This document shows positions 43,972 through 51,936 of a DNA stretch of 64,000 bases, piece after piece. Each line of letters begins with the position of its first letter. The first letter of the stretch is position 1. The position numbers were made by a program, and so were the translations under genes. Below the pieces are notes generated by a model, which saw nothing but the letters and a program-made list of their open reading frames with translations, was not told where the DNA came from and did no database searches. The DNA comes from Desulfofundulus salinus (GTDB lineage: Bacteria; Bacillota; Desulfotomaculia; Desulfotomaculales; Desulfovirgulaceae), in contig NZ_RBWE01000001.1 in assembly GCF_003627965.1 (NCBI RefSeq), positions 1,040,588 to 1,104,587 of the forward strand, read 5' to 3'.

Positions 43972-46242
43972 TCAACCAGTGCGACCGAACATTTGTTGAT
44001 ATTGCTCCATGGTCATTAAAATGGCCCGGGGCTTGCTGCCCTCAAATTTGCCCACGATGCCCCGCCGCTCCATAATGTCGATCAACCGGGCAGCCCGGGC
44101 ATAACCAATATGCAGCCTTCTTTGGAGCATGGAAATGGACGCATTGCCGTTTTCAATAAGTATTTTTACTGCCTGGGGAAGCAGTTCATCTTCTTCCTCC
44201 ACCCTTGCCTCTTCCTCTTCCACCGGCGGTTCTTCCATTACCCGCTGGTCATATACCGGTTGAGCCTGTTCTCTCAGGAAGGACGTAAGGTTTTCCACCT
44301 CCTCATCCGACAGGTAGGCTCCCTGCACGCGCATGGGTTTCGGTGCGCCTACCGGGAAGAAAAGCATGTCTCCTTTGCCCAGCAGTTTTTCTGCCCCTCC
44401 CATATCCAGGATGGTCCGGGAATCCATCTGGGAGGAGACGGCAAAGGAAATGCGGGAGGGAATATTGGCCTTGATTAAGCCGGTGATCACGTCCACCGAG
44501 GGACGCTGGGTGGCTACAACCAGGTGGAGCCCCGCCGCCCGGGCCATTTGGGCCAGCCGGCAAATGGAATCCTCCACGTCGGCCGGGGCGACCATCATCA
44601 GGTCGGCCAGCTCATCAATAATGATCACCACAAAGGGCAAGGGGCCTTCCGGCTGTGTCGTTGTGGCCGTTGCAGTTTCGTCTGGGGGTGGGGCGGCATC
44701 TGTTGCCGGGTTTTCCCCGGCCGTCCGGAATAGATCATTGTAACGTTTAATATCCCTTACCCCCGTGCGGGCAAAAAGCTCATAACGCCGCTCCATTTCC
44801 TTTACCGCCCAGCGTAAAACCCCGGCTGCCTTTTTGGCGTCGGTAACCACCGGAGACACCAGGTGGGGAATGCCGTTGTAAGTAGTTAATTCCACCATCT
44901 TGGGATCGATCATTAAAAATTTAACTTCATCGGGAGTAGCCTTGAATAGAATACTGGCAATTAACGTGTTAATGCACACACTTTTTCCCGAACCGGTAGC
45001 GCCGGCTACCAGCAGGTGGGGCATTTTACCCAGGTCCGCGATCACTGGGGCTCCGGCAATATCACGGCCTAAAACTACGGTAAGGCGGGAGGGGCTTTCC
45101 ATGAACTCCCTGCTTTCCAGCAATTCCCGCAGCTGCACGGTGGCTATTTCCCGGTTGGGCACCTCGATGCCCACGGCTGCCTTGCCCGGGATGGGCGCTT
45201 CAATGCGCACACCGGGAGCTGCCATGGCCAGGGCGATGTCGTCGGCCAGGCCCACAATGCGGCTGACCTTAATGCCTGCCGGGGGCTGGATTTCATACCG
45301 GGTTATGGCCGGCCCCACGGATACCTGGGTCACCCGGGCTTGAATGTTAAAACTGGCCAGGGTTTCTTCAAGAATTTGTTTTTTTTCGGCAATCTCCCGC
45401 TCTAAAATTGAATTATCCCGGGGCCTGGGTTTAGCCAGGAGACCGGTGGGGGGCAGCCGGTAGGGGCGGCCATCGGCCAGGGCGCAAGGGGCTACCTCCG
45501 TCTCCATTAATTCCATTCCGTCTTGCTCCCTGGCGTTTTGCTTGCGCCGTTCCTTTTGCTGCCGGCGGTTTTTGGTGCTCTCTTCCTGTGTTTCCGTCTC
45601 CCCGGCCAGGGCATCTGGTTGCGGCAGGGGAAGGTTGTCCTTTTTTTCGGGAAGGGCAGGGGGACTGGTTTGTTTCCGGGTGCCCGCTTCTTCCACCTCT
45701 TCAAAGAAAAAGTCGGTCAAGCGCTTCCCCAGGCGCTGCGCCGTGCTGCGCACGGCTTGATCTGTAATGCCCAGAAACCTGGCCAGGGATTGGCCGGTGA
45801 GCAGGACAATGCCGGTTATGGTGAGAAAGGCCAGCAGGATATAGCTTCCGGCAACACCAAAACACAGATACAGTAAATAGCTGAAGGCGGCTCCCACCAA
45901 CCCGCCGCCCTGCCCCTGCCAGGCGGCGCGAAAGAACTGGTCCGGCGGTATAAATAAGTGCAAAAAGGTGAGGGTGCTGATCAGCAATATTACCAGGCCC
46001 CAGGCACGGGGGGTTATCCCGTTAACCTTTCGTTCGCGCATAACTTTTATGCCGAAAAAAAACAGGACTACGGGCAGCAGGTAACGGCCGCTTCCGGCGG
46101 TAACCGTCAAACCCCGGGCAAGAAAGTGTCCTACCGTTCCTGCCGCCGGGGTAAATAAGCTGGCCATGCCGAGCAGTGCCAGGGTTATGATGGCCAGCCC
46201 GTAAAGCTCAAATTTAAGCTCCTCCAACCATGGTTTGGCCAC
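43972..46242 (-). CDS. Second FtsK/SpoIIIE-type DNA translocase
   Basis: 756 residues from GTG 46242 (AAGGAGGGG just before it; an upstream TTG at 46260 is an alternative). About four membrane segments in residues 10-160, a long charged and Gln/Glu-rich linker (190-250), and a motor with GATGSGKS and [13 protein letters not shown]. The C-terminal gamma domain ends in FEGSKPRAILMTMEQYQQMF. It is closely related to the copy at 10109-12307, differing mainly in the linker and a Thr/Ala/Pro insert before Walker B. One copy probably serves vegetative division and the other sporulation. Confidence 0.92.
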   Translation of the reverse strand: MAKPWLEELKFELYGLAIITLALLGMASLFTPAAGTVGHFLARGLTVTAGSGRYLLPVVLFFFGIKVMRERKVNGITPRAWGLVILLISTLTFLHLFIPPDQFFRAAWQGQGGGLVGAAFSYLLYLCFGVAGSYILLAFLTITGIVLLTGQSLARFLGITDQAVRSTAQRLGKRLTDFFFEEVEEAGTRKQTSPPALPEKKDNLPLPQPDALAGETETQEESTKNRRQQKERRKQNAREQDGMELMETEVAPCALADGRPYRLPPTGLLAKPRPRDNSILEREIAEKKQILEETLASFNIQARVTQVSVGPAITRYEIQPPAGIKVSRIVGLADDIALAMAAPGVRIEAPIPGKAAVGIEVPNREIATVQLRELLESREFMESPSRLTVVLGRDIAGAPVIADLGKMPHLLVAGATGSGKSVCINTLIASILFKATPDEVKFLMIDPKMVELTTYNGIPHLVSPVVTDAKKAAGVLRWAVKEMERRYELFARTGVRDIKRYNDLFRTAGENPATDAAPPPDETATATTTQPEGPLPFVVIIIDELADLMMVAPADVEDSICRLAQMARAAGLHLVVATQRPSVDVITGLIKANIPSRISFAVSSQMDSRTILDMGGAEKLLGKGDMLFFPVGAPKPMRVQGAYLSDEEVENLTSFLREQAQPVYDQRVMEEPPVEEEEARVEEEDELLPQAVKILIENGNASISMLQRRLHIGYARAARLIDIMERRGIVGKFEGSKPRAILMTMEQYQQMFGRTG

Positions 46243-47758: not shown

Positions 47759-47983
47759 CTATTTTAATAATTCCGACACTGGTTTAAACAGGGCCTCGAT
47801 AGCTTTCGTCGGATTTGGTAACTGTACCCCCAGCACCTGGGGAATGCTTAGGGCCATACCGATGGACAGGTACAGCCAGAAGGCTGCCAGTTCCCGCCAC
47901 ATCTTCTTTTTGACCAGGCCCGGCACTTCGAAAAGGATAATGCCGATGAACAATGCGATGAGCAGGGCGATCACGTTTCCCAT
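47759..47983 (-). CDS. Small membrane protein at the end of the ger operon
   Basis: 74 residues with an N-terminal membrane segment (residues 3-22) and a second weaker one (35-50). The gene follows gerC by 30 bases on the same strand with AGGGAGGATGGG before the ATG, so it is likely in the germination operon. Small membrane proteins of this type (GerD/GerE-like extra subunits) occur in other ger operons; I do not recognise the family and assign no specific role. Confidence 0.65.
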   Translation of the reverse strand: MGNVIALLIALFIGIILFEVPGLVKKKMWRELAAFWLYLSIGMALSIPQVLGVQLPNPTKAIEALFKPVSELLK

Positions 47984-48013: not shown

Positions 48014-49210
48014 TTACTCTTCCGGCGTACTGGCCCGTCTGGTCAGCAGGCCGATTTCCCTGATATAGGCTTCCACGGCAATGTTAACCTCCGCCCGGGC
48101 GAATTCCTCGTCCCATCGGTCTTTCAATTCACGTCATTCTTTTTTGTACTTCCGGTGGAAAGCGTCGCCAAAGCCGAAGATGTCCACGCCGTACTCCCAC
48201 TGGGCTTTCTCCAGAGCGGCTGCTGCTCTCTTCTTGACCTCCTCGGCCATTTCGCTTTCCAGGGCTTTGATCTTTTCAGGCTTGGCCAGATCCTCGAGGC
48301 TTTGCTGTTCCACCATATCCCCTTCCACTCTTACCAGCACGTCAAGCCGCAGGTGTTTCCCGTCGTATTCCGGTCTGACCTTCGTACTTCCCCGCCGAAT
48401 CTGGATGGAGACCTCTTTATCCGGCTCACCTGGGCTGGGGACAGTGATTACTCCCTTCACAGCCTCACCCTTCAGCCAGAGCAGTCCCCTGGTTTCGTAA
48501 GCGTCCAGCCACCCGATTAGCCTGTCCTCCTTAAATACCGCCACCCCGGAAATTTCCACCTGTTTATGCGCTGGGGACTTCTTATCCTGGCCCTGCTCCG
48601 GGGTAATCCCTGCTTCTTTTTCTTCAACCGCGGTGACCACCGGCTGTACCCCTTTACTGGCCAGCATTTCAGCAAATTCCCTGACCTGAACGGATTTACC
48701 GGTTCTCATCCTGTGCAGAAAGCCGGCGGCCTGCGCCGAGGTTTTTTCCAGATTAGAATAGGTTTCCAGCAAGTCTTTTGCTTCTCCTTTAGCCACCATC
48801 ACCCACATATTTTCCCGGGGTTGCCCGTTGCGCTGAAAAAAGTTTGTAACCATACGTGTTCCCTTTTTGGCCATTTCTTCCCCGAGGATCAGGATAATGC
48901 TATGGCCCCAGTAGATTTCACGAGGGACCTTCATGGCCAGGTATCTTTCGGCCTCCTCAACGGTTTTGCCTTCCGCGGAAACCACCCAGCTGGCAGGCTC
49001 TCTTGCCCTGCTCCCCGCTTCACCGCCGCCGTAAAAAGCACCGGGCCTGGCGATCTGTACGGTCAGCCGGATCCGGCCGTCCGCCGTCCAGTCAACTCCT
49101 GTTCCCAGCACGATGGCTATCTCGGTTATTTCCTTGCGGCTCCAGCAGCCGCCCGTAAGGCCGGTTAGAAGTATCAGCAAGAGGAGGACGGCAATCTTTT
49201 TAACCAACAC
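48014..49210 (-). pseudogene. gerC: gerC (Ger(x)C lipoprotein) with an in-frame TGA
   Basis: GerC-type germinant receptor lipoprotein. Signal peptide with lipobox LTGGC, then the Ger(x)C domains (EITEIAIVLGTGVDW, YLAMKVPREIYWGHSIILILGEEMA, AFHRKY near the end). A TGA at 48134-48136 stops the frame after KYKKE; the same frame continues RELKDRWDEEFARAEVNIAVEAY and ends at TAA 48014. The homologues known to me have Trp where the TGA lies, so TGG to TGA is likely. The truncated product (about 358 residues from GTG 49210) lacks 40 C-terminal residues. GTG 49210 has GGGAGG upstream and overlaps gerB by 11 bases. Confidence 0.85.
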
Positions 49211-50300
49211 TTTTTCCTCCCTTTCCCCTGGCCAGAGCAACAATCAGCAATACCAGTGGCATCCCCACCTCAAAGACGCTTAAGGCGTAGGGTGGCCAAA
49301 CCGCAGCCAGAAAATCAAGCAGCTCTACGATGTTCTTGCAGAGGACCGCCAAGGCCGCCAGGATCACCCCCACCGGTGCCACCAGGGGCCGGTAATCCTT
49401 TAGCCCCAGCCACTGGGCGCTGCCCAGAACGGCGGCATAGTAAAATACTCCGACTTTTGCGAACCCTCCAAACATCCACACCGCCACAATAATAGTATCC
49501 AGCCGTTCCAGAAAATTGGCGATGGAAACCGCCCGGACTGCGTTGTATGTGGGAAAAATCCAGTGGCCCGTGACATTGGGGCCAAAAATCGTTATTGCCA
49601 CCAATATGCTTACTAAAAGGAAGAAGCCGGTAAACAAAGTGGCCAGCGCGGCCACCCGATGGGCTTCCTTTGGCTTGTTAAGAAAAGGAATGATCATGGC
49701 AAAGGCAACAATTTCCCCCAGCCAGCTCGCGGGTGTGGCGGCCCCTTTTAGAATAGCGATAGCACCCTTATCAAAAACCGGCAGCAGCCTGGCCACCTTC
49801 ATCTCTTTGGTGGCTAAAATGAAAACGACAAGCAGCAATCCCAGGACAAGGGGCAGGAACAGCTGGTTGAAGCGGCTTAAAACCTCCAGTCCGTTGCGGA
49901 TCGCGTAGGCCGCCACAGCAATCCCCACAATGAAAAAAACAATGACCGGGGTATCGGGCATTTGAGCGGTACACAGAAAAGCTCCAAACTCATCCATGAT
50001 CAAGGCATTTGTGTGCAGGAACCACCAGATATACATAAGACCGACAATCTTCCCCGGCACCTTGCCTAGAATTTCCTCCGCGTATTCAAACAGGGTTTTT
50101 CCCGGGAAACGGAGGCTCAAGCTCACTACCAGCCGGGCGATCAGCAGTCCTGCCATTGTGGCGACGATGATTGATAGCCAGGCATCCTGTCTGGCGTGCT
50201 TCACGGTAATGGCAGGAACGGTGAGGATGGCCGTGGGGAGAACCAGGCTGATCATCAACAAAATGGCCTGTTTGCTATCAATTTTGCCCTGTTCCAGCAT
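49200..50300 (-). CDS. gerB: Spore germination receptor subunit B (permease-like)
   Basis: 366 residues with ten hydrophobic segments; GerAB/APC-type subunit of a nutrient germinant receptor in the spore inner membrane, the presumed binder of the nutrient. Family-like stretches include DAWLSIIVATMAGLLIARLVVSLSLRFPGKTLFEYAEEILGKVPG and WIFPTYNAVRAVSIANFLERLDTIIVAVWMFGGFAKVGVFYYA. It starts 13 bases after gerA ends, and gerC begins within its 3' end, so the three are co-translated. The nutrient cannot be predicted. Confidence 0.94.
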   Translation of the reverse strand: MLEQGKIDSKQAILLMISLVLPTAILTVPAITVKHARQDAWLSIIVATMAGLLIARLVVSLSLRFPGKTLFEYAEEILGKVPGKIVGLMYIWWFLHTNALIMDEFGAFLCTAQMPDTPVIVFFIVGIAVAAYAIRNGLEVLSRFNQLFLPLVLGLLLVVFILATKEMKVARLLPVFDKGAIAILKGAATPASWLGEIVAFAMIIPFLNKPKEAHRVAALATLFTGFFLLVSILVAITIFGPNVTGHWIFPTYNAVRAVSIANFLERLDTIIVAVWMFGGFAKVGVFYYAAVLGSAQWLGLKDYRPLVAPVGVILAALAVLCKNIVELLDFLAAVWPPYALSVFEVGMPLVLLIVALARGKGGKSVG

Positions 50301-50313
50301 ATAATCAGCTCCA

Positions 50314-51936
50314 TTATCTCTTCGGCCGGGTTTCCGGAGGGGTTGGTTTTAAACCCTGTTCCTGCCTTTTTTGATCTTGCCTCGCGATCAACCGGGGGCG
50401 GGAAAACATGGACCACAACGGTGCCCGGAAGGCCACGTCCTTCAGGTCGACGCCGGTGGTGGGGACTACCGGAGACAGGTAGGGAACCCCGAAGGAGCGC
50501 AGTGTGCACAGGTGGATACCGATGATCGCCAGCCCGCTGATCAATCCGAATAAGCCCAGGGTGGCCGATAATAACATCATGGTGAACCGCAAGAGGCGAA
50601 AGGCAATACTGGCGCTGTAAAAAAAAGTAAAGGAGGCAATGCCGGTAAAGGCTACAACGATGACGGTAGCGGCGGCCACCAGGCCGGCCCGCACGGCGGC
50701 CTCCCCGATGACCAGGGCGCCCACGATGCTTACCGCCTGGCCTATGGGTCGCGGCAGGCGGATCCCGGCTTCCCTTAAGATTTCAAAAGTAATTTCCATG
50801 ACCACCACCTCAATGAAGACCGGGAAAGGGACCGCCTCCCGCTGCGCGGCGACACTCAGCAAAAGCGTAGTGGGGAGCAGCTCATGATGAAAGCTGACCA
50901 CGGCAATATACAGCGCAGGCAGCGTAAGCGATATGATCATGGAAAGAAACCGGATTAGCCGCACGGCCGAGGCGAATAGGAACCGCTCGTAATAGTCCTC
51001 GGAGGCGTGGAGATATTCGATGAACAGGTTGGGTACGGTCAGGGCAAAGGGGGTGCCGTCCACCAGAATGGCCACCCGCCCTTCCAGCAACATCGCCGCC
51101 ACCTTATCCGGCTTTTCGGTATGGTTAACCGTGGGAAAAGGGCTCAAGGGATTGTCCTCGATCAGTTCCTCGATGTAGCCACTTTCCAGAACGGCATCAA
51201 CCTTAATTCTCTCCAGCCGGCTTTTCACTTCTGCCACCAGCTTTTCGTTGGCGATGCCTTCAATATAAGCTATGGCCACATCGGTGTTGGTAACCTCGCC
51301 AAGCCTTAAGATTTCGATTTTCAAGTTGGGGCTTTTTATTCTCCGCCGGATGAGCGATGTATTGACCCTTAAGGTCTCGACAAAAGACTCCCGCGATCCC
51401 CGCACCGTCGGCTCTGCTTCCGGGTCGGTAATGCTACGCCCTTCCCAGCCCCTGGCCCCGTTGATGATGGCGGAGGTGTGCCCGTCAACCAGCAAAACGG
51501 TATCCCCCGACAGAATGGCGTGGATGATATCCTGTAGCTTATCGGTTTCCTTGATCTGGTGTATGCACAGACCCCGCTGTTTGATGAATTCCAGTGCCCG
51601 GGCTTTTGTAATCTCCTGGCCGGGCACGGCCATAGCCACTTCCAGGGCCAGCGCCCGCATGATCTGGTCACTGACCTGCCCTTTGTCTGCCAGACCGTCC
51701 GTATAGATCAGGGCTAGCCTGATCTGCTCATTCTGGACAAAAACAAACTCCCGGTAAATTACGTCGCTGCATTTATCCAGGATGGCTTTAATCTGCTTCA
51801 GGTTAGTTTCCAGGTGCGGGGTCAAAACCTGGTTCTTCCAGGACACGTTGCCAGGGCTGTCTTCCTGGGCTTGATTGACAGGATGTTTGGCCCGGTCCAG
51901 GAATCTTGCTCTCAACGGCTTAATGAATCTGGCCAT
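50314..51936 (-). CDS. gerA: Spore germination receptor subunit A
   Basis: 540 residues. An N-terminal cytoplasmic region (about 1-320) is followed by four or five membrane segments and a basic tail. GerAA-type signatures: GDTVLLVDGHTSAIINGARGWEGRSITDPEAEPTVRGSRESFVETLRVNTSLIRRRI, DNPLSPFPTVNHTEKPDKVAAMLLEGRVAILVDGTPFALTVP, SDYYERFLFASAVRLIRF-like text (here EDYYERFLFAS) and GLISGLAIIGIHLCTLRSFGVPYLSP. First gene of the gerA-gerB-gerC operon. An ATACTA-containing stretch about 45 bases upstream could be a forespore sigma-G -10 element, but the spacing to a -35 is poor. Confidence 0.95.
   Translation of the reverse strand: MARFIKPLRARFLDRAKHPVNQAQEDSPGNVSWKNQVLTPHLETNLKQIKAILDKCSDVIYREFVFVQNEQIRLALIYTDGLADKGQVSDQIMRALALEVAMAVPGQEITKARALEFIKQRGLCIHQIKETDKLQDIIHAILSGDTVLLVDGHTSAIINGARGWEGRSITDPEAEPTVRGSRESFVETLRVNTSLIRRRIKSPNLKIEILRLGEVTNTDVAIAYIEGIANEKLVAEVKSRLERIKVDAVLESGYIEELIEDNPLSPFPTVNHTEKPDKVAAMLLEGRVAILVDGTPFALTVPNLFIEYLHASEDYYERFLFASAVRLIRFLSMIISLTLPALYIAVVSFHHELLPTTLLLSVAAQREAVPFPVFIEVVVMEITFEILREAGIRLPRPIGQAVSIVGALVIGEAAVRAGLVAAATVIVVAFTGIASFTFFYSASIAFRLLRFTMMLLSATLGLFGLISGLAIIGIHLCTLRSFGVPYLSPVVPTTGVDLKDVAFRAPLWSMFSRPRLIARQDQKRQEQGLKPTPPETRPKR

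Follow-up and report, generated by a model that had tools for sequence, protein, structure and literature searches.

The 64,000-nt window of Desulfofundulus salinus DNA analysed here contains a gerA-gerB-gerC germinant-receptor operon on its minus strand, and the gerC frame of this operon is interrupted by an in-frame TGA (Table 1). The genome has two gerABC operons, the interrupted gerC belonging to one of them, and the second gerC is intact; three GerA-family genes are present. The start of the window gerC probably lies at GTG 49210 or TTG 49207, as judged from an SD-like GGGAGG and from its overlap with the end of gerB. When the operon was compared with that of Desulfofundulus thermosubterraneus, no further internal stops were found in gerA, gerB or the rest of gerC; the search for further broken genes by synteny was confined to the ger operon, since the flanks differ in the relative. 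The small hydrophobic ORF downstream of gerC gave no family match in profile searches and could possibly encode a small D-type receptor subunit. Synonymous divergence (dS) from D. thermosubterraneus was 0.24 for gerB, 0.66 for gerA and 0.61 for gerC, and the lower value of gerB suggests recombination inside the operon.

Table 1. Features of the interrupted ger operon in the window, and loci of the candidate Sec-type GerC in relatives.
Feature	Position or loci	Strand	Basis and remarks
gerA subunit, intact	50314..51936	-	PF03323, 627 bits; no internal stop
gerB, germinant-receptor permease subunit, intact	49200..50300	-	PF03845, TIGR00912; no internal stop relative to D. thermosubterraneus
gerC, Ger(x)C germinant-receptor lipoprotein, interrupted	48014..49210	-	PF25198 and PF05504, TIGR02887
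In-frame TGA replacing a conserved Trp codon	48134..48136	-	Trp in 65/67 other homologues; invariant column
Remainder of the gerC frame past the TGA (39 sense codons, then TAA at 48014-48016), encoding the C-terminal helix and final strand of the GerAC C-domain	48014..48133	-	PF05504 positions 139-167; purifying selection; modelled helix 355-371 and strand 373-384
Hydrophobic 74-aa ORF downstream of gerC	47759..47983	-	Accompanies the operon in D. thermosubterraneus too (77% identity)
Class I, candidate Sec-type GerC	L066/L078, L067/L079, L179/L082, L069/L081, L070/L080
Class II, candidate Sec-type GerC	L180-L189, L192, L193		TGA-TGT (putative Sec-Cys) in the C-domain

Translation of the reading frame placed the TGA directly after ...FHRKYKKE, at codon 370 when numbered from the TTG at 49243, and past it the frame continued as RELKDRWDEEFARAEVNIAVEAYIREIGLLTRRASTPEE up to its TAA. 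The in-frame TGA, the residues downstream of it and the distance to the next stop had all been described in an earlier note on this DNA, and the translation reproduced them exactly. With the TGA read through, the product had PF25198 and a complete PF05504 domain, and scored 308 bits against TIGR02887, which is above the cut-off. PF05504 aligned unbroken over the TGA (all 167 positions, 180.5 bits) as against 138 positions and 142.6 bits for the frame cut at the TGA; because this match spans the TGA, the reading across it exceeds chance. The read-through product also matched the solved GerBC of B. subtilis (3n54) by sequence, and the same structure was the top Foldseek match (E=8.2e-21) of its AlphaFold2 model (mean pLDDT 80.5, 21 sequences in the alignment). 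The two domains and the TIGR02887 match, the gerA and gerB genes in the same operon and the GerBC fold of the read-through model together identify the gene as a member of Ger(x)C. In the model numbering the TGA is residue 358, and truncation there deletes most of the C-terminal helix and the whole last strand, for which pLDDT was mostly >90.

Homologues of this GerC were gathered from 60 relatives and from named genomes, the nearest named one being D. thermosubterraneus (81% identical). The TGA column in 68 distinct sequences had Trp in 65, the window's own stop in one and other residues in two, namely Gln in L074 (26% identical), where a Trp follows one residue on, and Gly in L064 (23%); both are very divergent and their alignment at this column is uncertain. 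The statement of the earlier note that homologues carry Trp here was thus borne out. A TGA at the Trp column was unique to the window genome, and neither Cys nor TGA occurred there in any of the 67 others. The column is one of 15 that are invariant among 21 diverse GerC, and it is also Trp in B. subtilis GerBC (3n54). The stop would have arisen by a lone base substitution, a TGG-to-TGA transition that reads as C to T on the plus strand. Substitution counts against eight relatives gave a dN/dS of 0.15-0.27 upstream of the TGA, and past it a dN of 0.05-0.26 with dS of at least 0.35 (for instance, dN 0.05 and dS 0.86 against L034). Selection on gerA and gerB resembled that on gerC, and the window lineage was no faster than D. 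thermosubterraneus. The low dN beyond the TGA therefore indicates that selection acted on this segment until very recently.

These observations bear on the view that the 369-residue GerC is functional and that this lineage can do without the last 40 residues. Normal translation would leave the N-domain whole and 138 of the 167 PF05504 positions of the C-terminal domain, which speaks for such a product. However, the full-length homologues surveyed all extend past this segment and only fragments do not; the Trp is invariant in the 21 diverse GerC, the lost helix and strand are modelled with confidence, and the segment shows purifying selection. A working shorter GerC is accordingly held to be improbable.

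The decoding of the TGA as selenocysteine was considered, as SelB and tRNA-Sec are present in the genome, together with a Sec-type fdhA whose Sec TGA is followed by a hairpin with a GGTCT loop, and as Sec also appears to be present in GerC from other genera. The region after the window TGA was scanned with criteria modelled on PMC13188914, which require a hairpin with a loop G at a distance of 16-37 nt from the TGA and a minimum free energy (MFE) of -7.5 kcal/mol or lower. No bSECIS was found in this range, whereas the same scan returned hairpins of -6 to -16 kcal/mol in those Sec-type GerC of relatives where it found one. In addition, the 60 nt following the TGA fold no better than shuffled sequences, and the homologues have Trp and never Cys at the column. 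Selenocysteine at this site was rejected on these grounds, and we leave it next to no probability. Reassignment of UGA to Trp was likewise rejected, as an ordinary tRNA-Trp was found and TGA serves as a working stop in this genome, for example at 43972-43974, where it terminates an FtsK-like gene. The tRNA-Trp was examined among pattern matches only, one being found, and the pattern search revealed no dedicated UGA-reading tRNA-Trp in the genome. Frameshifting at the A6 run just upstream of the TGA was inspected by eye and set aside, the -1 and +1 frames both stopping within a few codons.

UGA is the leakiest of the bacterial stops, and the segment past it is still conserved here, so the TGA might be real but leaky, the ordinary tRNA-Trp misreading it at a rate that yields some full-length GerC and leaves the receptor with reduced rather than abolished activity. 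In-frame stops that evolve under purifying selection occur widely among bacterial genes, and readthrough may affect many of them (PMC7918605), which would agree with such leakiness. On the other hand, the stop is present in one genome only and nothing shows that it is maintained, and the tRNA-Trp found has a CCA anticodon on a regular stem of 5 bp, unlike the UGA-reading type, in which the anticodon stem has 4 bp (PMC13092985). We consider a leaky stop quite unlikely. Of the readthrough proposed in the earlier note, the selenocysteine form thus fails for want of a SECIS-like hairpin, and decoding as Trp, for which the search found no dedicated tRNA, would be possible at a low level.

A base-calling or consensus error, with Trp as the true codon and gerC intact, would explain why one substitution stands alone in a gene that is fully constrained elsewhere, in an operon with no second lesion. 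Modern assemblies seldom contain substitution errors, and the 2.86-Mb length of this contig, in an assembly of 10 contigs with 99.98% completeness, suggests good data; an error is unlikely, though it deserves to be kept in mind.

We therefore favour the reading that the window TGA is a very recent loss-of-function nonsense mutation, which we regard as probable because the TGA is unique to this genome, the Trp is conserved, no SECIS-like hairpin follows, the operon is otherwise intact and relaxed selection is not seen. The transition would have put a premature stop into the gerC of this operon, one of two gerABC operons in the genome, and translation would end at residue 369, leaving a truncated C-terminal domain that may misfold or fail to assemble. 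All three receptor subunits have been described as essential for function (PMC13170314), and a receptor with the truncated GerC would have little or no activity; germination could still be started by the second receptor, which is intact. The mutation would be too young for further decay. It has to be weighed against this that, with neither a second lesion nor relaxed selection, the same picture would be given by a sequence error or by a gene that still works in part. The earlier note had offered fresh inactivation, a working shorter GerC or readthrough, and fresh inactivation is the one that fits best. Lone nonsense codons were also found in other gerC, namely a TAG in L017, a TGA at the lipobox Trp in L166 and a TAA in L175, each in one genome, and such gerC lesions are therefore not exceptional; most of the stops flagged by the genome searches sat upstream of the true start codon and were discarded. 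A nonsense mutation in the window gerC is ordinary in itself, and the TGA is mainly a matter of annotation, indicating that the sequenced strain of this thermophile has probably lost the function of one germinant receptor.

Outside the window, 17 gerC of relatives were found with an in-frame TGA that recurs at two sites other than that of the window, and these matter more than the window TGA. Class I comprises five of them, from five genomes in two families of the order to which the window belongs, and in all of them the TGA occupies one and the same column of the N-domain, within a motif resembling TPGxSISxK-U-xxN. At this column one relative has Cys (L085, codon TGC), two have Ser (L083 and L084) and the others Pro or Ala. 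In all five class I genes a hairpin starts about 21 nt past the TGA, its loop being of the GGTC or GGGC type; four came from the simple scan, and the fifth, in G062, has a one-base bulge and -8.5 kcal/mol by RNAfold. These hairpins slip by one base between genera, their single-sequence folding z-scores are unremarkable, and synonymous-codon shuffling gave only 0 to 0.13 for single genes. A Cys at position 159 is found in all five class I proteins and in the Cys homologue, compared with 2 of 12 others, and it would suit a Sec-Cys pair. SelB was present in the four class I hosts that were checked for it. A class I relative with Ala at the site, L089 of genome G009, still has a GGTCG hairpin, perhaps the relic of a lost Sec codon.

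In class II, a TGA followed by a Cys codon occurs in 12 of the 14 genomes with this GerC in the Thermacetogenium class, among them that of Thermacetogenium phaeum, which has been reported to contain tRNA genes for selenocysteine incorporation (PMC3551663). All 12 have a hairpin of 5-8 bp whose loop begins 23-24 nt past the TGA, and the loop is GGTCG in most. The four homologues that lack the TGA have no hairpin at that place. In the Cys relative L190 the codon is TGC, and the hairpin is missing. Covariation in these stems is modest, only one pair (columns 24-34) changing on both sides. In both classes taken together, the loop and the spacing of all 17 agree with the bSECIS model, and the simple-stem energy was -7.5 kcal/mol or lower except in L069 (-6.2) and in L187, L189 and L192 (-7.0). 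Every TGA gerC that is not cut off by a contig end is adjoined by gerB and/or gerA, and tRNA-Sec was found in all the hosts. Both groups also have non-TGA members nested within them in the tree, which would be expected if Sec is lost now and then.

The TGA thus recurs at a fixed column in each class, with Cys there in one relative per class and with tRNA-Sec in the hosts. From this recurrence, from the position of the TGA and from the contrast with the non-TGA homologues, we consider it very likely that the TGA in gerC of some relatives is decoded and that GerC became a selenoprotein in two lineages and at two sites, with Sec opening a strand of the N-domain in class I and forming a vicinal Sec-Cys pair in the C-domain in class II. 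Selenium incorporation into these proteins is inferred. The window TGA belongs to neither class. A 2026 catalogue holds 119 prokaryotic selenoprotein families and subfamilies and lists no germination or spore protein (PMC13188914), and we read the class I and class II GerC as two putative selenoprotein forms absent from it. No report of a Sec-containing GerC was found in the literature searched, most subscription papers lying outside the search, and NCBIfam has generic Ger(x)C models only. Such TGA-containing gerC would normally be annotated as pseudogenes or as truncated. If they do carry Sec, a germination protein would be added to a selenoprotein catalogue that has none, the receptors could be redox- or selenium-dependent, and selenium or redox state would be linked to how strict anaerobes leave dormancy.

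Compared with known systems, the window gerC resembles the Ger(x)C lipoproteins (TIGR02887; GerBC, 3n54) in its two domains, its fold, its GCW lipobox and its place in a gerA-gerB-gerC operon, and differs from them in being broken by a TGA at a near-invariant Trp. Like the bacterial selenoproteins with a bSECIS, such as FdhA, it has an in-frame TGA in a host with SelB and tRNA-Sec; unlike them, it has neither the hairpin nor a Cys homologue, both of which are found for the class I and class II GerC of the relatives. The closest likeness is to the isolated nonsense-interrupted genes and pseudogenes of bacteria, with which it shares one lineage-specific stop, no other decay and a frequency ordinary for the gene family, and among which it is not distinctive, other than in being very young.
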